From a virus, in IMG/VR virus record IMGVR_UViG_3300035670_000501, positions 1 to 41,393 of that record: a stretch of DNA of 41,393 nucleotides. One strand, 5' to 3'. The number at the start of each line of letters is the position of its first letter. Positions within the stretch are counted from its first letter, which is position 1. The notes below the pieces were generated by a model that was not told where the DNA came from, ran no database searches, and was given only the letters and a program-made list of their open reading frames with translations. The position numbers and the translations under genes are program-made. Shown one piece after another: positions 3,481 to 34,803 of the stretch.

Positions 3481-4888
3481 TTTTAATCGTATCTTCCCAA
3501 TTACGTAACATTATATTTCCTTTTTCGTATGCTTCTCTTTCAATTTCAGGTAAATCTCCGTCCTCGTTTGTATTGGTTGTATTAATATTATTTAATTTAC
3601 CATTTAAATTTTGTTCATGATGGACCATTTCGTGAGAGAACGAACGCAAAATATCTTTTGGGTGTCTATCCATTGTGAATAAAGTAATTGATTTATTATT
3701 TGGATCATAATAAGCCGTTTTACCCAAAAGATCGGATGCGTTTTCTTTATCATCCTTTATAACCTTAATTTTAGGCAATGGTTTGATATTCATTCCATTG
3801 TCAATCATAAACTTAGATAAAGATACGAAGGCATCTTGCAAATTCCAACCTTCTTTTAAAGGAGCAAATCCTGATCCATAAGGTAAAGCTGTACCTGCTT
3901 GTGGGTCAGATGCTTCTTTCATTTTACGTAATCGCTCTGTTTTCTTTTTAGATGCTTCTTTACGTTTTTCAATATAATCTAAAGCACGTTTTAATCTTGA
4001 TTTTACTTCAGGATCTTTTGCTTTACCATAAGCGGCTCTTACTCGTTGATGAATTAAGTTAATTACTTGAGATTGACGAGCATGAGATTTAGCTTTAAAA
4101 GATGTTTTATTTAAAGTATCAACAATATCTTCTTTGGTTTTAAATTTAATACGGACCGTGTCTTTTGGATCTTCATCTGTGTATAATCTACGACCTGAAC
4201 CTTCTGGTTTTTTGCCTGTTCCTTTTTTAGGGTCTTTCTTTTTAGGACGACCTTCTTCTAATCCACCAGGTGTATTTAATTTTTTACCTGTTGCTACATC
4301 TGTATCATAACCACAAGATCCTTCTTTAACAACAGAAGATACAATATCCCATACTTGTTCTTTTTCTTCAATGTCTGGGATTAAATGGAAAAATTGTTCT
4401 TTGTTATTGTCTTTAACAGCTTTACGAGCTGCCGTTCCACTAACACCTCCTGTTGTTTGAATAACACGTAATTGAAGATTAGGATATTTATCTATTGTTC
4501 TAGTTCTAGAAGCAATATCAGTAAAATCTTCAGGATTATTTTCACGAGCACCTATAATCCAAAGTACTGTTTCCTCAGGATGTTCTTTAGCATAACGTAA
4601 AACATCACCTACAGGTGCTTTTGAAGGTTCAATTCGGGTTTTTAATGGAAGATATTTTTTATATAATTCCCAAATTTGAATAGATTCGCCTTGAGTAATA
4701 CCATCACGCTCACCTCCACCCACATAAATGATAATATCATCAATTTCAGGGTCTTGTTCAGCGGCTTTTTCAACAACAGCATAATGTCCTTTGGTAGGTG
4801 GTTTAAATCCACCCCCATAAATAGCGGTTACTTTTTTTTTCTCCGCTTCCAAAAGATCTTCTAATAAGACTTTGGTAAGGGAGTTCAT
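3473..4888 (-). CDS. nucleotidyltransferase fused to a zincin-like metallopeptidase domain
   Basis: A 471-residue two-domain protein. Residues 18-185 form a HIGH-superfamily nucleotidyltransferase: GGGFKPPTKGH (TKGH at 32-35 in place of HxGH) and the late SGTAAR motif (150-155) that binds the nucleotide. A Lys/Arg-rich linker spans about 205-330. The last 125 residues hold a zincin motif: HEMVHHEQ places His419, Glu420 and His423, and Glu450 or Glu452 in PEIEREAYEKG could be the third zinc ligand, as in gluzincins. The first domain should transfer a nucleotide to a phosphorylated metabolite or cofactor precursor. The second might cut or mature a protein, possibly itself. The fusion is unusual. 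The first domain is secure, the second moderately so. Confidence 0.75.
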   Translation of the reverse strand: MNSLTKVLLEDLLEAEKKKVTAIYGGGFKPPTKGHYAVVEKAAEQDPEIDDIIIYVGGGERDGITQGESIQIWELYKKYLPLKTRIEPSKAPVGDVLRYAKEHPEETVLWIIGARENNPEDFTDIASRTRTIDKYPNLQLRVIQTTGGVSGTAARKAVKDNNKEQFFHLIPDIEEKEQVWDIVSSVVKEGSCGYDTDVATGKKLNTPGGLEEGRPKKKDPKKGTGKKPEGSGRRLYTDEDPKDTVRIKFKTKEDIVDTLNKTSFKAKSHARQSQVINLIHQRVRAAYGKAKDPEVKSRLKRALDYIEKRKEASKKKTERLRKMKEASDPQAGTALPYGSGFAPLKEGWNLQDAFVSLSKFMIDNGMNIKPLPKIKVIKDDKENASDLLGKTAYYDPNNKSITLFTMDRHPKDILRSFSHEMVHHEQNLNGKLNNINTTNTNEDGDLPEIEREAYEKGNIMLRNWEDTIKNV

Positions 4889-5263
4889 TTATTTAAGTTT
4901 TTGGATTTTTTCCTTAGCTGCTGCTTTTTTCTCTTCAATATCTTTTTTAGCTGAACGGAAAGCTTCCATAGCATCTTCCATTTCTTTAAGCTGCATTTCA
5001 TATTCTTTTAAAATTTCAGTAGCATGACGATTTGCCTCAGATCTATTTTTATATGCACCTTTGGTTTCGTCCATTTTAATTTCATCAAATATAGTAGCTT
5101 CATATACCATATTTTCTTTAGTCATACCTTTACCAGGTTTTTTAACTACAAAGAATTTACCAATTTCATCTACTACAGAATGTTCAGCTTCTTGAACAGG
5201 AGCTACTTCCTTAACTGGTTTTTCTTTTTTTTCTACTTCGTTTAATAAGTCTACTAGTTTCAT
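4889..5263 (-). CDS. coiled-coil hypothetical protein
   Basis: A 124-residue charged protein. The N-terminal half is rich in Glu, Val and Lys and includes a beta-like stretch around VDEIGKFFVVKKPGKG. The C-terminal half (about residues 80-124) is a continuous Glu/Lys/Ala helix expected to form a coiled coil. There are no cysteines, no signal peptide and no catalytic motif. It abuts the nucleotidyltransferase gene with no gap and overlaps the kinase gene by 4 bases. It could be an oligomerising partner of one of these enzymes or a virion accessory protein. The function is unknown. Confidence 0.6.
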   Translation of the reverse strand: MKLVDLLNEVEKKEKPVKEVAPVQEAEHSVVDEIGKFFVVKKPGKGMTKENMVYEATIFDEIKMDETKGAYKNRSEANRHATEILKEYEMQLKEMEDAMEAFRSAKKDIEEKKAAAKEKIQKLK

Positions 5264-6021
5264 TTGTTTATAAATTTAGTGATTTTTGTTTGTGCTTGGT
5301 CTATTGTATCAAACTCAGGTTGGGTTGAGATTAATTGTTTTATATCTGAATTGATTTGTTTAGCTTCTTGTTTAGACTTTAGTTTTTCTTCGGGAGTTTT
5401 TTCTTTACCTACTTGTCCTAAAGGTTCAATATATGTTTTAAAAATATAATTTTCATCAAAACTTTTATTAGCATTTTCAGGATTTAAATCTACTATTGTA
5501 AAACTATCTCCAAATGCTTGTTTATATACGTCTATATTTTTATTTACGTCGCGCCAAGAGCGAATCACAATACTCGGCAACAATGATCTGTCTCGCTGTT
5601 TATTGCGCTCTAGTGACGTTATAGGCGATACATAAGTCATTACCATCATTGTATCGTATCCTAGATTTTCTAAATCTGATTTTTTCTTAAGTAATGTTTT
5701 GGAAGAACCACCTACACTATCGATAGCAAGGTTCTTTAAATTTTGAGTAGCATCTTGATATTTACTATCTGTTGCTTTTCTAGCTTGACCCATTAATTCA
5801 CCTGCTTTTTTTAATTCATCAGGTGACATTTGAGCTAATTTCATTCCAATGCCTGAAGACTTAAGGAGTTCTTCATAAGTGTCATCAACATTAATAACAT
5901 TAAAATTAGATGGGACTAGTTTTTGAAGAATAAAGGATTTCCCAGAGCCAGCAGGACCAGCCATAAAAATTGCTTTTGGCTTACCTTGTATTTCTTGCAA
6001 GAGAGATATCAGTCCAATCAT
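5260..6021 (-). CDS. P-loop kinase, zeta-toxin/PNK-like
   Basis: A 253-residue protein that opens the operon reading down to position 1. A Walker A motif GPAGSGKS at residues 22-29 follows a beta strand (KAIFMA). NVINVDDTYEELL is a likely Walker B or substrate segment, and an Arg-rich stretch (ERNKQRDRSLL) near residues 138-148 looks like a lid. The arrangement resembles zeta-toxin and polynucleotide-kinase-type small-molecule or nucleic-acid kinases. It would use ATP to phosphorylate a nucleotide, sugar or RNA/DNA end; the substrate cannot be told from sequence. An exact copy of the ATATTTATAAC motif lies 12 bases upstream, suggesting late expression of the whole operon. Confidence 0.7.
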   Translation of the reverse strand: MIGLISLLQEIQGKPKAIFMAGPAGSGKSFILQKLVPSNFNVINVDDTYEELLKSSGIGMKLAQMSPDELKKAGELMGQARKATDSKYQDATQNLKNLAIDSVGGSSKTLLKKKSDLENLGYDTMMVMTYVSPITSLERNKQRDRSLLPSIVIRSWRDVNKNIDVYKQAFGDSFTIVDLNPENANKSFDENYIFKTYIEPLGQVGKEKTPEEKLKSKQEAKQINSDIKQLISTQPEFDTIDQAQTKITKFINK

Positions 6022-29351: not shown

Positions 29352-29407
29352 TTTTAACTCCTTTTCGAGGGGCCACCACCAAGTTATTAGATACTTGGAA
29401 ACTTTGA

Positions 29408-29479
29408 GCTTCCTGCCGGAATCGAACCGACAACCCTCGCATTACAAATGCGATGCTCTACCTGTTGAGCTAAGGAAGC
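29408..29479 (-). tRNA. tRNA-Thr(TGT)
   Basis: Full cloverleaf: acceptor GCTTCCT/AGGAAGC, anticodon loop TTTGTAA and a standard T-arm. CCA is not encoded, as with the other tRNAs here. It is the last RNA before the terminator at 29351. Confidence 0.95.
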
Positions 29480-29491
29480 ATTTTGAGCCGA

Positions 29492-29641
29492 TTACTCGGC
29501 TACAGTTGTGTCTACAGCAACACAAGTAGTATCAACTACTGTAGTGTCTACTGCTGTAGAATCTGTGGTAGTGGTTTCGGTGTTATTAGCACAAGAAGCC
29601 AAAGCTACAACAGCAACAAGAGCGAAAAACATTTTTTTCAT
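29492..29641 (-). CDS. small Thr/Val/Asp-rich lipoprotein
   Basis: A 49-residue protein from the ATG at 29641, chosen over upstream ATGs because the signal peptide begins here. MKKMFFALVAVVALASC is a textbook lipoprotein signal with the lipobox LASC and acylated Cys17. The mature part is 33 residues, almost only Thr, Val, Asp and Ala in TTVVD-like repeats with one extra Cys40. It has its own host-type promoter (29676-29707) and sits between a membrane protein gene and tRNA-Thr. Phage lipoproteins of this size can block receptors against superinfection (for example T5 Llp). That role is inferred from class and promoter only. Confidence 0.7.
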   Translation of the reverse strand: MKKMFFALVAVVALASCANNTETTTTDSTAVDTTVVDTTCVAVDTTVAE

Positions 29642-29675
29642 TTTTGTATGTTGGGTTTTAATTGTTAAACTTAGA

Positions 29676-29707
29676 ATAAATATATTAACCTTTCTTGACA
29701 TTTCCAA
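29676..29707 (-). promoter_or_regulatory. host-type promoter of lipoprotein gene
   Basis: TTGG, 19 bases, TATATTTAT on the minus strand. It lies across the 3' end of the 85-residue gene and about 35 bases before the lipoprotein ATG. Confidence 0.75.
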
Positions 29708-29942
29708 GTGCTTTGTCGATTCTTGAATCAACTTTGCGAGAAATCTCTTGAATAGATTTTTCTGTTTGAGATTTAATAGAATTTATTACCTTAAGATTAT
29801 CTTCTACTGATTTTCTATGTTCTTTAAATTCTCGTTTAATTCGAGTAAATTCAATCAACACAGCAGTCATTCCTAACAAAATGGCTCCAATAAAGAACAT
29901 TGTCACTGGATGTGGTAGTACTGTAACTGTAACTTCATTCAT
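29685..29942 (-). CDS. small membrane protein with coiled coil
   Basis: An 85-residue protein. A short N-terminal segment and one transmembrane helix (VTMFFIGAILLGMTAVLIEF) are followed by a Lys/Glu-rich helix (about 33-85) likely to form a coiled coil on the cytoplasmic side. It lies between tRNA-Ser(TGA) and the lipoprotein gene. The function is unknown; it resembles the other small membrane helices of the lysis region without clear sequence identity. Confidence 0.6.
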   Translation of the reverse strand: MNEVTVTVLPHPVTMFFIGAILLGMTAVLIEFTRIKREFKEHRKSVEDNLKVINSIKSQTEKSIQEISRKVDSRIDKALGNVKKG

Positions 29943-29964
29943 ATTAACTAATTTAAATTTTAGC

Positions 29965-30048
29965 GGAAGATGTAGGATTCGAACCTACGGTACCTTGCGG
30001 TACAACGGTTTTCAAGACCGCCGCGATCGACCACTCTGCCAATCTTCC
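29965..30048 (-). tRNA. tRNA-Ser(TGA)
   Basis: Class II cloverleaf with a long variable arm. Acceptor GGAAGAT/ATCTTCC, anticodon loop CTTGAAA. It lies directly upstream of the 85-residue membrane protein gene. Confidence 0.95.
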
Positions 30049-30078
30049 ATTCCATAATTAAGTCTATGGGAAACTTTG

Positions 30079-30149
30079 TTAACGGTGTAGGGATCGAACC
30101 TACATTTCTTGGGTCGGGGCCAAGCGTCCTGCCGTTAGACGAACCGTCA
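30079..30149 (-). tRNA. unusual tRNA, possible Arg(CCG) or degenerate Gln-like
   Basis: The acceptor (TGACGGT/ACCGTTA, one G-T pair), D-arm (GTCTAACGGCAGGAC) and T-arm (GTAGG/CCTAC) are normal and resemble the phage's own tRNA-Gln. The anticodon stem CTTGG/CCAAG closes the loop CCCCGAC, which has C rather than the near-universal T at position 33. The nominal anticodon is CCG. Whether it is charged or decodes is open. Confidence 0.6.
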
Positions 30150-30169
30150 AGATACGGCATATTGATATT

Positions 30170-30490
30170 ATAATCTGGCGATTAGAACCCGACGTTCTAT
30201 TCGTTTCCTTTACTAGCTACATCTCCCGACATGTATTACTAATAAACTGTGAGAACAAAGCTATTGAGGTAACTTTGCTTTATACTTTGGATTTAACAAC
30301 CGCAATTGTTCTAGCGGCCCCGAAATGTTTACTAAAACACTCACGGAATTAAACCAACCTATTTCTCACCAGACCTTCTATCCAATGGGAACCCTCACCT
30401 GCTTGCGAACCTCTCCGTTAATGCAGTTTCAGCAGGATACTGCAAGAAGGTTTTCCTTCGGGGCACTTTTGGGTATGTTATATTTTCAAA
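30170..30490 (-). ncRNA. candidate structured RNA, about 300 nt
   Basis: This 390-base stretch has no credible gene but is dense in hairpins. An 8-bp helix GCCCCGAA/TTCGGGGC joins 30457-30464 to 30317-30324. Another 7-bp helix, TCTGGTG/CGCCAGA, joins 30367-30373 to 30174-30180 and would cross the first (pseudoknot). Local hairpins lie at 30446-30459, 30423-30443 and 30300-30317. It starts just after a host-type promoter (30502-30532) and precedes two tRNAs. Its 3' part vaguely recalls the 3' end of tmRNA (GGGTTCTAATCGCCAG), but no tag reading frame or matching 5' end is found. No known family recognised. Confidence 0.55.
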
Positions 30491-30501
30491 GAACTATGAT
30501 A

Positions 30502-30532
30502 CGAATATAATATAAATACATTCAATATCCAA
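30502..30532 (-). promoter_or_regulatory. host-type promoter upstream of structured RNA
   Basis: TTGG, 19 bases, TATATTCG on the minus strand. The expected start near 30495 is the beginning of the structured RNA candidate. Confidence 0.75.
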
Positions 30533-30538
30533 GTTTAG

Positions 30539-30615
30539 TTGGCAAGAAGGGACTTGAACCCTCATGTAACCAGTTACCCTTTCTACAAGGTATAAGCTTG
30601 AGGGGATACTTGCCA
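30539..30615 (-). tRNA. atypical tRNA-like RNA without normal D-arm, possible Ile(TAT)
   Basis: The 7-bp acceptor TGGCAAG/CTTGCCA and T-arm (GAGGG/CCCTT) are clear. No normal D-arm can be drawn. The only good 7-base loop is CAAG-CTTATAC-CTTG, which would present TAT after a correct T33. A small hairpin GTAA-CTGG-TTAC occupies the variable region. It may be a truncated tRNA for ATA codons or a non-translational tRNA mimic. Confidence 0.5.
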
Positions 30616-30621
30616 ATATTG

Positions 30622-30694
30622 TCGGGAAGACAGGACTCGAACCTGCGGCCTGATGGTCCCAAACCACCCAATCTACCAACTGATCTACTTCCCG
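30622..30694 (-). tRNA. tRNA-Pro(TGG)
   Basis: Normal cloverleaf: acceptor CGGGAAG/CTTCCCG, anticodon loop TTTGGGA. Confidence 0.95.
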
Positions 30695-30703
30695 ATATTA
30701 TTG

Positions 30704-30777
30704 TGATCCAATCAGGATTCGAACCTGAGACCTACTGCTTAGAAGGCAGTTGCTCTATCCATCTGAGCTATTGGACC
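30704..30777 (-). tRNA. tRNA-Arg(TCT)
   Basis: Normal cloverleaf: acceptor GGTCCAA/TTGGATC with one G-T pair, anticodon loop CTTCTAA. It reads AGA/AGG codons. Confidence 0.95.
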
Positions 30778-30788
30778 ATAATATATTG

Positions 30789-30861
30789 AGCGAGATGTGG
30801 GACTCGAACCCACAACCCCCGACTTGGAAGGACGGTGCTCTACCAATTGAGCTAATCTCGC
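30789..30861 (-). tRNA. tRNA-Gly(TCC)
   Basis: Normal cloverleaf: acceptor GCGAGAT/ATCTCGC, anticodon loop CTTCCAA. First tRNA after the promoter at 30886-30917. Confidence 0.95.
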
Positions 30862-30885
30862 TTTTTATGTCAACGAACTTATGTT

Positions 30886-30917
30886 GTAAATATACAACCA
30901 AAATATTAAAAAACCAA
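30886..30917 (-). promoter_or_regulatory. host-type promoter within tRNA region
   Basis: TTGG, 19 bases, TATATTTAC on the minus strand, upstream of tRNA-Gly, -Arg and -Pro. Confidence 0.8.
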
Positions 30918-30925
30918 ATTTATTG

Positions 30926-31011
30926 CGGAAAGCATTGGAGTCGAACCAAATACCTTTTCAGGTACATCTCGCTTAGCAGGCGGACCCTCTCACCGTTGAG
31001 GATTACTTTCC
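30926..31011 (-). tRNA. tRNA-Ser(GCT)
   Basis: Class II cloverleaf with long variable arm. Acceptor GGAAAGT/GCTTTCC, anticodon loop CTGCTAA. It begins 5 bases after the RNase H-like gene ends, so it is probably cut from the same transcript. Confidence 0.95.
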
Positions 31012-31016
31012 TTATT

Positions 31017-31466
31017 TTAACGACATTGATAATCAGCTGCCTTAGTAGCAACTTGAATATCAGGTTTAACGTTAACTTTATATCCTAAACTATTTGCCCA
31101 ACCTTTAGCAGCTGAAATTAGTTTATTTGATTTAAAGGTTTCATCATCGTTATAATCCATATCAATTTGAACGTTAACATTTATTTGTTTAGTTAACCAT
31201 TCTGCTATTTCAATAGATGCTTCTGCTTCTTTCCATAAGCGAGTCCATATATCTAAAATAGCAGGTTCTTTAGATTTAGAAACAATATAGTGAACGCCAT
31301 TACGACTAAAACGATACGCTATAACGGTACTATATGTTGTATAACCGCCTTCATTTTGAGAGTCAGTACCAATGTGGATTTGCACAGTTGGATTGTCTCT
31401 TAACACCTCTAATGTATGTTTAACCACGTTTACCACTTGACCGTTTACTCGTTTGAACACTTTCAT
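31017..31466 (-). CDS. RNase H-like protein, YkuK/DUF458 family
   Basis: A 149-residue protein from the ATG at 31466 (MKVFKRVNGQVVNVVKHTLE); an ATG at 31484 would add six residues. The signature IHIGTDSQNEGGYTTYSTVI places the first catalytic Asp as in YkuK-like RNase H-fold proteins. Later acidic residues (DMDYNDDE) could complete the metal site. The family is predicted to be nucleases, but its substrate is unsettled. It is the only protein gene inside the dense tRNA array, flanked within 30 bases by tRNA-Trp and tRNA-Ser. A role in RNA processing or RNA/DNA hybrid removal is suggested by context. Confidence 0.75.
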   Translation of the reverse strand: MKVFKRVNGQVVNVVKHTLEVLRDNPTVQIHIGTDSQNEGGYTTYSTVIAYRFSRNGVHYIVSKSKEPAILDIWTRLWKEAEASIEIAEWLTKQINVNVQIDMDYNDDETFKSNKLISAAKGWANSLGYKVNVKPDIQVATKAADYQCR

Positions 31467-31492
31467 TTTAATTAAATTAAACAATTTACTAG

Positions 31493-31563
31493 CACGGATA
31501 CAAGGATTCGAACCCTGAACTGAGGTTTTGGAGACCTATATGATACCATTTCACCATATCCGT
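31493..31563 (-). tRNA. tRNA-Trp(CCA)
   Basis: Cloverleaf with acceptor ACGGATA/TATCCGT, anticodon loop CTCCAAA. Confidence 0.92.
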
Positions 31564-31571
31564 ATTTTATG

Positions 31572-31643
31572 AGGTTAGTATAGGATTCGAACCTATATAC
31601 CGAAGTTTTGCAGACTTGGACCTTACCTATCGGACAACTAACC
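31572..31643 (-). tRNA. tRNA-Cys(GCA)
   Basis: Cloverleaf with acceptor GGTTAGT/ACTAACC, anticodon loop CTGCAAA. Confidence 0.94.
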
Positions 31644-31648
31644 ATTTG

Positions 31649-31722
31649 GGTGATTAATGGGAATCGAACCCATGGCACAAGGAACCACAATCCTTTGCTC
31701 TACCTACTGAGCTATAACCACC
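31649..31722 (-). tRNA. tRNA-His(GTG)
   Basis: Cloverleaf with acceptor GTGGTTA/TAATCAC, an extra 5' G (-1 position) facing C73 as expected for histidine, anticodon loop ATTGTGG. Confidence 0.94.
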
Positions 31723-31728
31723 ATATAG

Positions 31729-31802
31729 TAGGAATAATAGGGCTCGAACCTATAACCTTCCGCGTATCAGGCGGATGCTCTAACCAATTGAGCTATATTC
31801 CT
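31729..31802 (-). tRNA. tRNA-Ile(GAT)
   Basis: Cloverleaf with acceptor AGGAATA/TATTCCT, anticodon loop CTGATAC. Confidence 0.95.
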
Positions 31803-31807
31803 AATTG

Positions 31808-31879
31808 CGTCCTCACTAGGATTCGAACCTAGGACCCAACGGTTAACAGCCGTTTGCTCTACCACTGAGCTATGAAGAC
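31808..31879 (-). tRNA. tRNA-Asn(GTT)
   Basis: Cloverleaf with acceptor GTCTTCA/TGAGGAC, anticodon loop CTGTTAA, discriminator G as usual for Asn. Confidence 0.95.
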
Positions 31880-31885
31880 ATTTGG

Positions 31886-31958
31886 TGGTTTCTGCTGGAT
31901 TCGAACCAGCGACGCTCGGCTCTTCAGGCCGACGCTCTACCAACTGAGCTAAGAAACC
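31886..31958 (-). tRNA. tRNA-Phe(GAA)
   Basis: Cloverleaf with acceptor GGTTTCT/AGAAACC, anticodon loop CTGAAGA. Confidence 0.95.
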
Positions 31959-31963
31959 AATTG

Positions 31964-32037
31964 TACATCGGGAAGGATTCGAACCCTCAACCCCTGCATC
32001 CGTAGTGCAGTGCTCTATCCAATTGAGCTACCAATGC
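31964..32037 (-). tRNA. tRNA-Arg(ACG)
   Basis: Cloverleaf with acceptor GCATTGG/CCGATGT, anticodon loop CTACGGA. A34 would need the host TadA deaminase to read CGN codons. Confidence 0.94.
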
Positions 32038-32042
32038 ATTTT

Positions 32043-32126
32043 GTGCCTGCAGAAGGACTCGAACCTCCGAACCCGTAAGGGAGCTGATTTACAGTCAGCT
32101 GCAATTGCCGCTATGCGATACAGGCA
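32043..32126 (-). tRNA. tRNA-Tyr(GTA)
   Basis: Class II cloverleaf with long variable arm. Acceptor TGCCTGT/GCAGGCA, anticodon loop CTGTAAA. Confidence 0.93.
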
Positions 32127-32198
32127 AATTCCGATTTTGATGGGCTACTTCTGATAATATGTTTCAATTACCCAGCACTTGAGATCGAGAACTCCTTG
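32127..32198 (-). ncRNA. inter-tRNA insert E, weakly structured
   Basis: 72 bases between tRNA-Tyr and tRNA-Val, much longer than the usual 5-10-base spacers. A TGGG/CCCA pairing and a GAAGTAGCCC stretch are visible, but no strong closing helix. It may be a small RNA or a processed spacer. Confidence 0.3.
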
Positions 32199-32271
32199 TA
32201 CACCCTCTAGGATTCGAACCTAGGACATATTGCATGTAAAACAATCGCTCTACCAACTGAGCTAAAGGTGC
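32199..32271 (-). tRNA. tRNA-Val(TAC)
   Basis: Cloverleaf with acceptor GCACCTT/AGGGTGT, anticodon loop TTTACAT. Confidence 0.93.
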
Positions 32272-32373
32272 ATATTCCCGTCGTTGGTACTGGCCGTTTC
32301 TCGAGTCGACACTTTCCCCGTTCTTGTTTTATTTGAGTGTACTTCCCTACTGGGACTTGAAGTCAACACTATG
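32272..32373 (-). ncRNA. inter-tRNA insert D
   Basis: 102 bases between tRNA-Val and tRNA-Lys. A TCCC-AGTA-GGGA hairpin carries the AGTAGG core found in other inserts, and two similar GTGTYGACT segments occur 50 bases apart. No perfect closing helix was found. Confidence 0.35.
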
Positions 32374-32447
32374 TGATCCCGATGGGGCTCGAACCCATGA
32401 CTCCCTCATTAAAAGTGAGGTGCTCTAGCCAACTGAGCTACGAGATC
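32374..32447 (-). tRNA. tRNA-Lys(TTT)
   Basis: Cloverleaf with acceptor GATCTCG/CGGGATC, anticodon loop CTTTTAA. Confidence 0.95.
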
Positions 32448-32453
32448 GTTTTG

Positions 32454-32534
32454 TACCGAAAGCGAGACTCGAACTCGCAAGCACTAGGCACTGGTTTCTA
32501 AGACCAGCATGTCTACCAATTCCATCATTTCGGC
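32454..32534 (-). tRNA. tRNA-Leu(TAG)
   Basis: Class II cloverleaf. Acceptor GCCGAAA/TTTCGGT, anticodon loop CTTAGAA. Confidence 0.95.
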
Positions 32535-32537
32535 AAG

Positions 32538-32665
32538 TAAAGAGAAACTACGGGTCTTTCGGGGTTTCTGGTTGAGTGCAATGAGTGACGCCTACCTACT
32601 ATAAACCCTTTTTCGGCAATTAATACACTCTACTTCTCAACTACAGCTTTCACTGTTTCTCTTTA
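32538..32665 (-). ncRNA. inter-tRNA structured RNA C, closed by 11-bp helix
   Basis: A 128-base insert between tRNA-Leu and tRNA-Asp. Its ends form a perfect 11-bp inverted repeat (TAAAGAGAAAC with GTTTCTCTTTA). The interior contains GTAGGTAGG (32591-32599) shared with insert B, and a CCCCGAAAG segment. The closing helix would isolate it from the flanking tRNAs and could guide processing. No coding potential. Confidence 0.55.
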
Positions 32666-32666
32666 G

Positions 32667-32740
32667 CGGCTCATACGGGACTCGAACCCGTGATCTCCCA
32701 CGTGACAGGCGGGCATCCACTCCAACTGGACCAATGAGCC
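32667..32740 (-). tRNA. tRNA-Asp(GTC)
   Basis: Cloverleaf with acceptor GGCTCAT/ATGAGCC, anticodon loop CTGTCAC, discriminator G. Confidence 0.95.
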
Positions 32741-32744
32741 AAAT

Positions 32745-32859
32745 AAAACATAATACTACTTTAATAACGTTTACCCAATTTTACATCCGAACGCTTTACC
32801 TTGTTAGACCGTAATTTGGGGAACGACTTCTAACATCCTACCTACCCATATTATGTTTT
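32745..32859 (-). ncRNA. inter-tRNA structured RNA B, closed by 11-bp helix
   Basis: A 115-base insert between tRNA-Asp and tRNA-Ala, bounded by a perfect 11-bp inverted repeat (AAAACATAATA with TATTATGTTTT). It shares the 9-mer GTAGGTAGG (32837-32845) with insert C. No open frame of interest. Confidence 0.55.
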
Positions 32860-32860
32860 G

Positions 32861-32933
32861 TGGAGCTGAAGGGATTCGAACCCTCATCCTTTACATTGCA
32901 AATGTAACGCTCAGCCAGTTGAGCTACAACCCC
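32861..32933 (-). tRNA. tRNA-Ala(TGC)
   Basis: Cloverleaf with acceptor GGGGTTG/CAGCTCC, including the G3-T70 pair that identifies alanine tRNA. Anticodon loop TTTGCAA. Confidence 0.95.
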
Positions 32934-32938
32934 CTCTA

Positions 32939-33015
32939 GACAGACTTTGCACACGTTCAGGGCCTACTGTGCTAATTCATCCCTGCGCTTCTACGTTTCC
33001 CGTCGGATATCTGCC
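32939..33015 (-). ncRNA. inter-tRNA structured RNA F
   Basis: A 77-base insert between tRNA-Ala and tRNA-Gln. Closing helix GGCAGA/TCTGTC (one wobble), an internal hairpin GCACA/TGTGC, and the AGTAGG core. Weaker than inserts B and C but similar in placement. Confidence 0.4.
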
Positions 33016-33019
33016 TTTG

Positions 33020-33090
33020 TTTTCCCCCAGAGATTCGAACTCCGATTCAGTGGCTCAAAACCACTTGTCCTGCCATTAGACGAGAGGAAA
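33020..33090 (-). tRNA. tRNA-Gln(TTG)
   Basis: Cloverleaf with acceptor TTTCCTC/GGGGAAA, anticodon loop TTTTGAG. Confidence 0.93.
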
Positions 33091-33095
33091 ATATA

Positions 33096-33175
33096 GTTGC
33101 AATTGATGGACTCGAACCACCCACGGGGAGCTACCCAAACTGACTCATGAGATCAGCGCTGCACCTGCATTGCAA
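33096..33175 (-). tRNA. atypical CAT tRNA with reduced D-arm
   Basis: Acceptor TTGCAAT/ATTGCAA and T-arm GGTGG/CCATC (with one unpaired base between T-stem and acceptor). A sound anticodon arm CTGAT-CTCATGA-GTCAG gives CAT. Only 12 bases replace positions 8-26, too few for a normal D-arm. The variable region is about 18 bases with a GGG-TAGCT-CCC hairpin. It could be a Met, initiator or Ile2 type, or a tRNA mimic. Confidence 0.55.
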
Positions 33176-33180
33176 TATAG

Positions 33181-33255
33181 TTGCGGGAGTGGGAATCGAA
33201 CCCACCTAGTCCAAGCTTATGAGACTTGTCAGTGCACCAGCTCTAGTTTCCCGCA
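33181..33255 (-). tRNA. tRNA-Met(CAT)
   Basis: Normal cloverleaf: acceptor TGCGGGA/TCCCGCA, anticodon arm CAAGT-CTCATAA-GCTTG. It could alternatively be Ile2 if lysidine-modified. Confidence 0.9.
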
Positions 33256-33263
33256 GTTTATTG

Positions 33264-33337
33264 TATTCCGGACGGGGTTCGAACCCGCAATCTCCGCCTT
33301 GAAAGGGCGACGAGTTAACCCGTTACTCTACCGGAAC
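33264..33337 (-). tRNA. tRNA-Glu(TTC)
   Basis: Cloverleaf with acceptor GTTCCGG/CCGGAAT, anticodon loop CTTTCAA. First tRNA after the promoter at 33386-33417. Confidence 0.94.
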
Positions 33338-33385
33338 ATGGTTTTCTAATATGTCAAAGAACTTCGTTCTTGCTTTTTCAACTTG

Positions 33386-33417
33386 GTAAATATACGAAAA
33401 TATATCCGGATATCCAA
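33386..33417 (-). promoter_or_regulatory. host-type promoter of main tRNA array
   Basis: TTGG, 19 bases, TATATTTAC on the minus strand, about 50 bases before tRNA-Glu. No other host-type promoter was seen until 30886, so it may drive all tRNAs from Glu to Ser(GCT) plus the RNase H-like gene. Confidence 0.8.
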
Positions 33418-33473
33418 GTTTTTTGTGAGAAGTTTTTAATTTCTCTTTTTATTTTACTATTTTAAAGAACAAA

Positions 33474-33504
33474 CAAAAAAACCCGACTTTTTTAGGGTCG
33501 GGTT
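33474..33504 (-). terminator. Rho-independent terminator
   Basis: On the minus strand an 8-bp stem AACCCGAC/GTCGGGTT with a 9-base loop is followed by TTTTTGTTTG. It ends the RNA unit from 34637 or 33685 and lies before the tRNA-array promoter. Confidence 0.9.
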
Positions 33505-33537
33505 TAACTTTGTTTTATTTGTATGTCTTTGTTATCT

Positions 33538-33659
33538 ACATACTCAACTTCGGTTAAACCCTGGATGCCCCGGATTAAACTTATAATCACTAATCCATGA
33601 TTGGCCCACTGCGATCATTGTCGCTCTGCGCTCTTGGTTTTGTGATATGTTGAGTAAGT
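33538..33659 (-). ncRNA. structured RNA A with own late-type motif
   Basis: A 122-base domain closed by an 11-bp helix with one mismatch (ACTTACTCAAC with GTTGAGTATGT). Internal hairpins include GCGA/TCGC and GGATTA/TAATCC. It is preceded by an exact ATATTTATAAC motif (33685-33695) and followed by a strong terminator. It could be an independent small RNA of about 200 nt, or the 3' domain of the large RNA upstream. Confidence 0.5.
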
Positions 33660-33684
33660 GTTTCACCTGTAGTAAAATTTATAT

Positions 33685-33695
33685 GTTATAAATAT
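33685..33695 (-). promoter_or_regulatory. candidate late promoter motif in RNA region
   Basis: An exact ATATTTATAAC on the minus strand, not followed by a protein gene but by structured RNA A and its terminator. This suggests late expression of a non-coding RNA. Confidence 0.45.
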
Positions 33696-33705
33696 GTTAA
33701 AATTT

Positions 33706-34637
33706 TTCTTTGTCGCAATAGAGGAAACGAACCTCTAAAATGTCCAACTTGCGTGTAAATTTAAAACGCTGAGATTATACGTTTATGCGTTAGGTCTTTT
33801 GTCGGATTATTTATTCCCTTCTTATCCACAAGCTTTTGACTTGTATCCTAACAATGCCGGTTATTTAAGTGAACCACTCTTTAAGTCACCTGTATTGGAC
33901 TACTCTCGCTATACTCCATCTGTTCAAACTTGCGGTCTGATAAGCCCCTGCCGAGGTTACAAATTTTTCAAACGAATCACTATCGGCTTGCGACCTCTAG
34001 TGGCAATGAACAACTCATTACTATGTAGGCATCTTTCGTCCGTGACTGGCATGCACTTTTGCTTTGATAGTTGTGAATTTGCATTCCAAAATACGCAAAG
34101 TGTTTTGACGTGGATGAGTGAAAGTAGTGGCCTGCCTTTTAGCTTTCCCAACTTTTGATCGAGAAAATACTAAACTACTCTCTGAGATATCCCTACCTCC
34201 ATATTTTAAGATTACTTCATGTTGCAAACCTTGGTAGATTCAAAACAAGGTAAATAACAGCACCACCTGTACATTTACATGCCTTTCGGCTTTAAGTACC
34301 CTCTAATATTGAATAACGCAATTGTAAACCTGGATGGGCCTATATCTTGCAAATATTCTACGAGTTATTCTTATTGTCCTTCCGGACTCAACCTAACGAC
34401 CCACATCGCTAAGTCATTCAATCATTTCATTACGGCGTTGCCCTCACTACTTCAGACCAAATGATATCCCGCTTGTCTACTCGAGCTCCTTTCGAAGCCG
34501 CAAACTACTTTGTCATGTAATTCACTTTATCCCCCTTTCGAGGTTTATTTAACGACCATAGACTGCCAATATCTTTTATCAACTTTCGTTGAATGGATAT
34601 TATAATAATTTAAAGAACGTTTTGTTTTCTAATTTGC
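33706..34637 (-). ncRNA. large structured RNA candidate, about 900 nt
   Basis: The 1.3 kb between tRNA-Glu and tRNA-Leu(TAA) has no credible gene; its short frames conflict and occur on both strands. The minus strand has repeated GNRA-capped hairpins: CAAC-GAAA-GTTG (34580-34591, inside an AATATC/GATATT stem), CCTC-GAAA-GGGG (34531-34545), CTTC-GAAA-GGAG (34484-34500), GTCC-GGAA-GGAC (34376-34390) and GCC-GAAA-GGC (34281-34290). The 3' end has a tRNA T-arm/acceptor mimic (33714-33753: CGCAA/TTGCG stacked on TAGAGG/CCTCTA with loop TTCGTTT). Size, host type and tRNA neighbours recall the ornate GOLLD and ROOL RNAs of phages. Membership is not shown. Confidence 0.65.
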
Positions 34638-34643
34638 TTATAT

Positions 34644-34675
34644 ATAAATATACGAACATCTTTTCAAACAACCAA
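34644..34675 (-). promoter_or_regulatory. host-type promoter of large RNA
   Basis: TTGG, 19 bases, TATATTTAT on the minus strand. The predicted start near 34637 is about 35 bases before the first hairpin of the large RNA. Confidence 0.8.
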
Positions 34676-34717
34676 GCTATATTAAAAAATTTTTAAAAAG
34701 CTTTTATTTTTTTTTTG

Positions 34718-34803
34718 TACATCCGGCCGGAATCGAACCGGCACGACCATCACTGGCCAAGGGATTTTAAGTCCCTCGTGTCTACCTATTTCACCACGGA
34801 TGC
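34718..34803 (-). tRNA. tRNA-Leu(TAA)
   Basis: Class II cloverleaf. Acceptor GCATCCG/CGGATGT, anticodon loop CTTAAAA. It begins 6 bases after the 82-residue gene ends, so it is cotranscribed with it and separated from the main tRNA array by the large RNA. Confidence 0.95.

Follow-up and report, generated by a model that had tools for sequence, protein, structure and literature searches.

A probable stable-RNA island with a complete tRNA set, a candidate re-wired tRNA and GOLLD RNA in an uncultured T4-like phage

Why should a bacteriophage carry transfer RNA (tRNA) genes for all twenty amino acids? The question is raised by IMG/VR record IMGVR_UViG_3300035670_000501, an uncultured viral sequence of 41,393 bp (the whole of which is referred to here as the window) that is classed as linear, a class that often denotes a fragment. 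Its minus strand holds an array of tRNA genes at 29406–34803, interspersed with other RNAs. We consider it probable that this array is the stable-RNA island of a T4-like Bacteroidota phage, made up of a decoding set independent of host tRNAs and arranged in boxA-led units, a re-wired tRNA-like element (TL) serving the AUA codon, and GOLLD and further small RNAs (X1–X5) as separate products.

ARAGORN recovered 25 tRNA genes from the array region, exclusively on the minus strand and representing every amino acid: Thr, Ser-UGA, Arg-CCG, Pro, Arg-UCU, Gly, Ser-GCU, Trp, Cys, His, Ile-GAU, Asn, Phe, Arg-ACG, Tyr, Val, Lys, Leu-UAG, Asp, Ala, Gln, two genes with a CAU anticodon, Glu, and Leu-UAA. 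The Rfam tRNA model found most of them again; the gathering run gave 21 such matches above the cut-off, GOLLD aside. An initial annotation of this DNA had counted 26 tRNA or tRNA-like genes covering all twenty amino acids, and both statements held, the 26th being the strongly conserved TL at 30537–30616. Its gene list was amended at two points: three Arg genes (ACG, UCU, and CCG) are present rather than two, and two CAU genes rather than a single Met. Three of the ARAGORN genes are structurally odd. One, at 33096–33180, is a class-II tRNA-like gene with a CAU anticodon followed by G37, a shortened D arm and a long variable arm; it recurs in relatives and was missed by Rfam. The others, the recurrent tRNA-Ser(GCU) at 30925–31012, which has a long D stem in relatives, and the second CAU gene at 33180–33255, had the selenocysteine tRNA model as their best Rfam match, below its cut-off.

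The window encodes genes of T4-like myovirus type (baseplate wedge, endolysin, and primase), and the isolates nearest to it by baseplate protein (46% identity) belong to the immuto group of Flavobacterium phages. Two protein searches gathered more than 100 related viral loci (numbered with the prefix L below). Many of these carry arrays of 19–26 tRNAs in shuffled gene order, which marks the array as a maintained feature of this phage group, and chance is excluded because 24–26 tRNAs sit at the same genomic place in related phages. In Flavobacterium phage immuto itself, the closest isolate, no tRNA is annotated between 40000 and 125000, and ARAGORN found none in 85000–125000. Completeness is not new in itself, as complete phage sets are known: Xanthomonas phage XacN1 likewise covers all twenty amino acids, with 26 canonical tRNAs per terminal repeat (PMC5852040).

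What the set could decode was judged under standard extended wobble at U34, with codon usage counted over 10,586 codons of the window. When anticodons were compared with codon usage, late structural genes included, as the initial annotation had proposed, the canonical tRNAs read all sense codons except AUA, which makes up 32% of Ile codons in the window and 39% in the late structural genes. At the other extreme, the sole codon of tRNA-Arg(CCG), CGG, is used 0 times. The tRNAs might chiefly tune translation to A/T-rich phage codon usage, completeness being a by-product of accumulation at a tRNA hotspot. The window has a GC content of 32% and many anticodons fit its commonest codons (AAA, GAA, CAA, TTA, and AGA), and the XacN1 tRNAs favor codons commoner in the phage than in its host (PMC5852040). 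We nevertheless regard this explanation as unlikely: codon-usage matching alone fails to account for a tRNA-Arg(CCG) without a codon to serve, a rare-codon rationale is absent for Trp, Cys, His, and others, and near-complete sets of 24–26 are kept in related phages. With the AUA gap fitted by TL (anticodon UAU) and CGG unused, the array appears to be a general replacement for the host set and not a supplement fitted to codon usage, and it is most likely a highly expressed, self-sufficient decoding set.

The initial annotation had gone further and suggested that translation continues after host tRNAs are cut, for example by anticodon nucleases. The capacity part of this suggestion stands: the set lacks no amino acid and could support translation by itself, with only AUA unread by canonical tRNAs. 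The escape part fared less well: of the 22 anticodon loops that could be compared, 12 have identical counterparts in one Bacteroidota genome, and there is therefore no general sign of nuclease escape. Protection from anticodon nucleases is plausible by analogy with T5 (PMC11555353). That the set specifically counters such nucleases and other tRNA-cutting defenses is a serious possibility, although not one that we favor. Precedents exist in T5 tRNA-Tyr acting against retron-Eco7 and phage tRNA-Lys against PrrC (PMC11555353), and in AriB of the PARIS system (PMC12409363); high-output boxA leaders would suit the refilling of a destroyed tRNA pool, and the odd architectures of the elements at 30537, 33096, and 30925 could resist recognition. 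It is the shared anticodon loops that speak against such a specialization.

How AUA might be read is suggested by TL, whose anticodon loop, CUUAUAC, presents the anticodon UAU. The element has a normal 7-bp acceptor stem, a 5-bp T arm with a TTCRA loop, a discriminator-like A directly after the acceptor stem, and a 7-nt anticodon loop with U33 and a purine, A, at position 37. No canonical D hairpin precedes the anticodon arm, and just ∼8 nt separate the acceptor stem from the anticodon stem. Instead, the D-stem strands pair with each other from either side of the anticodon arm, which is followed by a D-loop-like GG segment. TL was absent from the ARAGORN output and from wide Rfam searches; given the TL stretch by itself, the Rfam tRNA model returned the same alignment with the D arm skipped, at 29.1 bits against a cut-off of 29.0.

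The fold was examined in an alignment of 18 diverse sequences, including the isolate A3Wally and two gut-virus records. Standard pairs filled 98.4% of the pair cells (75.0% when shuffled), 16 of 21 pairs had changed on both sides, and the covariation score was 0.643, against 0.183 for shuffled alignments. By helix, the acceptor stem (98.4% of cells paired) and the T stem (95.6%) both covaried, the anticodon stem was paired in 100% of cells, and so were the D-stem strands, three of whose pairs covaried. Nearly all members carry the CUUAUAC loop; the variants are CUCAUAA in L139 (CAU), CUACGAA in A3Wally (Arg ACG), and CUGAUAA in L456 (GAU). A family model scored clear members at 83–103 bits, a shorter L456 element at 39 bits, and canonical tRNAs at ∼30 bits or less. 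L456 holds TL-type elements at three places (4395–4474, 5163–5228, and 5794–5873), their anticodons being UAU and GAU. The relative in A3Wally, a Microbacterium phage, is unannotated and lies within a gap of its tRNA array, at about 93608–93687 of MZ150783.1.

An exact pattern of the TL core occurred in more than 119 viral contigs and had no match in 395 Bacteroidota genomes. At the 120 matching loci, every one of the 331 tRNAs lying within 4 kb of TL was on its strand. The commonest neighbor was tRNA-Arg(UCU), very often as a lone tRNA, Leu-UAA was also among the neighbors, and a canonical Ile-UAU was found nearby in 3 loci. Features such as the missing D arm, the failure of ARAGORN to call the element and its unusually invariant core could also be expected of a tRNA-like regulatory or decoy RNA that is not a tRNA. 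We find this doubtful, given that the anticodon varies among UAU, GAU, CAU, and ACG while U33, A37, and the 7-nt loop stay, that an A follows the acceptor stem, that the element keeps company with Arg-UCU and Leu-UAA tRNAs, and that AUA would otherwise go unread. TL fits a tRNA-Ile(UAU) filling the AUA gap. Among open-licence papers, D-armless tRNAs were described from animal mitochondria and mites only, which is weak evidence of absence elsewhere. Those tRNAs are functional and share the missing D hairpin (PMC2797822, PMC9427863); TL differs from them in belonging to bacterial viruses, in pairing its D-stem strands around the anticodon arm and in placing the D-loop-like GG after it.

A second feature bears on how the array may be transcribed. 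The 21-mer GTTCTTTGACATATTAGAAAA at 33342–33362 (minus strand), 25 nt ahead of tRNA-Glu, matches over 21 bases the boxA that precedes 23S ribosomal RNA (rRNA) in Bacteroidota, and a boxA-like sequence with one mismatch, GTTCGTTGACATA, lies ahead of tRNA-Gly on the same strand (30866–30878). When GTTCTTTGACATATTAGAAAA was searched in 84,980 genomes with R allowed at one position, 39 matches were obtained, exclusively in Bacteroidota. At least 23 of the 39 stand just before 23S rRNA, with 23S landmarks 2.1–2.2 kb downstream; 16S rRNA, sought downstream of the matches, was not found, because the matches precede 23S. In 82 phage arrays the core TTCTTTGACA occurred 40 times in sense and 0 times in antisense orientation, at a density of 0.128 per kb, against 0.0046 per kb elsewhere (∼28-fold less), and typically 24–27 bases ahead of the first tRNA in a run. 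By identity with the boxA of the Bacteroidota 16S–23S spacer and by its leader position, the motif is an rRNA boxA, although here it precedes phage tRNA runs. Its presence in the arrays ties these phages to Bacteroidota hosts, and we take the host phylum of the uncultured phage to be Bacteroidota on these sequence grounds. It further suggests that the host machinery for rRNA antitermination also serves the arrays.

The tRNAs share the island with other structured RNAs, among them GOLLD. The full RF02032 model matched its conserved 3′ domain at 33766–34182 (minus strand; model positions 1–416) with 277.9 bits against a cut-off of 150. Relatives also conserve the 5′ domain and leader of GOLLD (34183–34705), which immediately precede the 3′ domain, and a T-arm/acceptor-like hairpin just 3′ of GOLLD (33712–33753), on the same strand, is conserved in four relatives. 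GOLLD has been known from phages, where it lies in the vicinity of tRNAs; in vitro it assembles into a 14-mer cage, as seen by cryo-electron microscopy (PMC12286853). The present copy agrees with known GOLLD in its full-length model match, its place among phage tRNAs and its variable 5′ domain, and differs in lying within a complete array beside new RNA families, with the T-arm/acceptor-like hairpin following. The tRNAs that flank GOLLD in relatives are Gly and Lys, Leu and Thr, or Met and Asn. Two uncultured phages of 635–642 kb, L304 (LR756502) and L305 (LR745206), show DNA similarity to the GOLLD of the window and have few tRNAs nearby.

Five short gaps of 70–135 nt between tRNAs hold the elements X1–X5, which other phages also carry, again on the strand of the tRNAs. 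X1 (32938–33012) has a closing helix and an H-type pseudoknot formed by CAGGG/CCCUG and GCACA/UGUGC; X3 (32535–32670), the most widespread, has five helices and a covarying pseudoknot, GGGUUN/NAACCC; X4 (32277–32371) is a covarying long hairpin with a candidate pseudoknot; and X5 (32127–32195) is pseudoknotted with the conserved sequence CUCAAGUGCU...AGCCCAUCAAA. X2 (32743–32858) is conserved in relatives, where it lies between the tRNAs for Ala and Asp. All five are on the minus strand. DNA pattern scans found X3 in ∼70 and X5 in ∼25 viral contigs, including contigs of >180 kb. An exact pattern of the X3 core had 0 matches in the 84,980 cellular genomes, and in isolate phages solely a chance-like 26-base match. 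In the window copy (32535–32670) and most members, the conserved X3 3′ core contains GAAAGACCC, which matches nine 23S rRNA bases close to the macrolide site, possibly by chance.

Covariation was used to assess these folds, since the energy z-scores of single X sequences (about −1.6 to +1.3) were uninformative, as is expected for pseudoknots. For X3 (37 sequences), 88.9% of pair cells were standard, compared with 75.8% when shuffled, 23 of 36 pairs had changed on both sides, and the score was 0.412 against 0.181; its pseudoknot was 98% paired, with the last pair switching among A-U, U-A, and C-G. Values for X5 (20 sequences) were 96.9% vs. 88.3% shuffled, with 8 of 13 pairs changed on both sides. 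The few sequences available for X1 (5) and X4 (7) gave 84% vs. 69.6% (10 of 20 pairs changed on both sides) and 94.4% vs. 84.0% (6 of 18), respectively. Sliding the pairing partners abolished the signal for X3, X5, X1, and X4 alike. At least four families of 70–135-nt RNAs between tRNAs are thus supported, with compensatory changes backing their folds and three pseudoknots. Are the X elements RNA genes at all, or could they be decayed tRNAs or spacers left by processing? They do sit in tRNA gaps, with ends within a few bases of tRNA ends, but family-specific conserved cores and covarying pseudoknots make the latter explanation improbable, as do the differing tRNA neighbors of several X elements across phages and the occurrence of X3 in contigs without a nearby tRNA.

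Two larger non-coding elements lie on the same strand. Element E (33470–33665) is a structured RNA ending in an intrinsic terminator (33474–33505), with a homologous RNA in L141. Within 33474–33665, GGGUUUAAC is complementary to GUUAAACCC, which overlaps the terminator arm; a terminator/antiterminator switch ahead of the tRNA-Glu unit is possible, on the strength of a pairing present in the window but elsewhere only, and roughly, in L141. The N element (30151–30535, ∼385 nt) is conserved in L012 and L221, has a largest open reading frame (ORF) of 61 aa, and is preceded by promoter-like and boxA-like sequence. In Rfam, neither X1–X5 nor E and N reached the cut-off of any family in the window search, which gave only weak sub-threshold matches, and the matches listed for ten related loci comprised GOLLD, transfer-messenger RNA (tmRNA), and tRNA only. 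T4 annotation likewise places small stable RNAs, rnaC (species 1) and rnaD (species 2), among phage tRNAs; an identity of X3 with either was rejected, as the X3 model had no match in T4 69500–74000 at E up to 1. A further conserved RNA, the Y element (∼107 nt), usually lies directly after tRNA-Ser(UGA) in relatives (L019 4448–4554 and 26 further loci) and is absent from the window. A tmRNA gene (RF00023) occurs in the related large phages L223 (9410–9780), L246 (8855–9260), and L285 (5143–5519), which also hold GOLLD, X elements, and near-complete tRNA arrays.

The array also contains an ORF at 31017–31484 (minus strand) with the RNaseH_like domain PF04308. A similar ORF adjoins tRNA-Ser(GCU) in relatives, in differing orders (e.g., L011 6037–6626), and its product may be an RNA-processing enzyme. 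Elsewhere in the window, the structural gene region encodes a Zeta-toxin-like kinase domain (PF06414) at 5260–6021.

From the gene content, conservation, covariation, and boxA identity and position observed here, we infer how the island may work. It would be transcribed in several units with the host rRNA boxA in their leaders, and host antitermination factors would probably carry RNA polymerase through these untranslated, highly structured transcripts, giving high yields. Processing of tRNA ends would release GOLLD and the small X RNAs as separate stable RNAs from shared precursors. Once charged, the set could suffice to translate every phage mRNA with no help from host tRNAs, the AUA gap being closed by an unusual tRNA-Ile(UAU) whose D-stem strands enclose the anticodon arm, with the D-loop-like GG behind. 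The island would thereby free translation from its dependence on a host tRNA pool that runs short or is being attacked. Several points weigh against this reading, the shared anticodon loops among them. Superwobble at U34 relies on modifications that are invisible in DNA, and the record is a 41-kb fragment from which all tRNA and translation gene content was read. The single-sequence energy optimum of TL is another structure (−25.5 vs. −16.4 kcal/mol), so that the re-wired fold rests on covariation, and transcription, processing, and charging of the array are deduced from sequence.

Complete phage tRNA sets such as that of XacN1 (PMC5852040), GOLLD in tRNA arrays and the small stable RNAs of T4 are already known. 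XacN1 and its host are unrelated to the phage described here, and the accessible part of the XacN1 report mentions neither GOLLD nor boxA leaders nor inter-tRNA RNA families. As far as Rfam and the open-licence literature searched go, which is weak evidence, the TL class is the foremost new element, joined by the X families and the rRNA boxA leaders of the phage arrays. On balance we lean toward the view that phages widely use a re-wired tRNA class, with no D hairpin, with D-stem strands around the anticodon arm and the D-loop segment behind it, and with UAU, GAU, CAU, or ACG anticodons, that reads AUA and Arg codons and escapes standard annotation, and that the same islands hold previously unknown pseudoknotted stable RNA families beside GOLLD, driven by leaders of host-rRNA type. 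Through the boxA leaders, phages may borrow rRNA transcription machinery by a route that is direct and open to testing. As companions of GOLLD with clear structures to test, the X families may help explain the stable RNAs in phage tRNA clusters, a question raised by RNAs C and D of T4. Should TL prove to be a working tRNA, an AUA-reading tRNA has been wrongly annotated as absent from many phage genomes, and ribosomes and isoleucyl- or arginyl-tRNA synthetase (IleRS or ArgRS) would accept a core wired unlike the cloverleaf; because the isolate A3Wally carries a TL relative, this can be addressed in a laboratory host.

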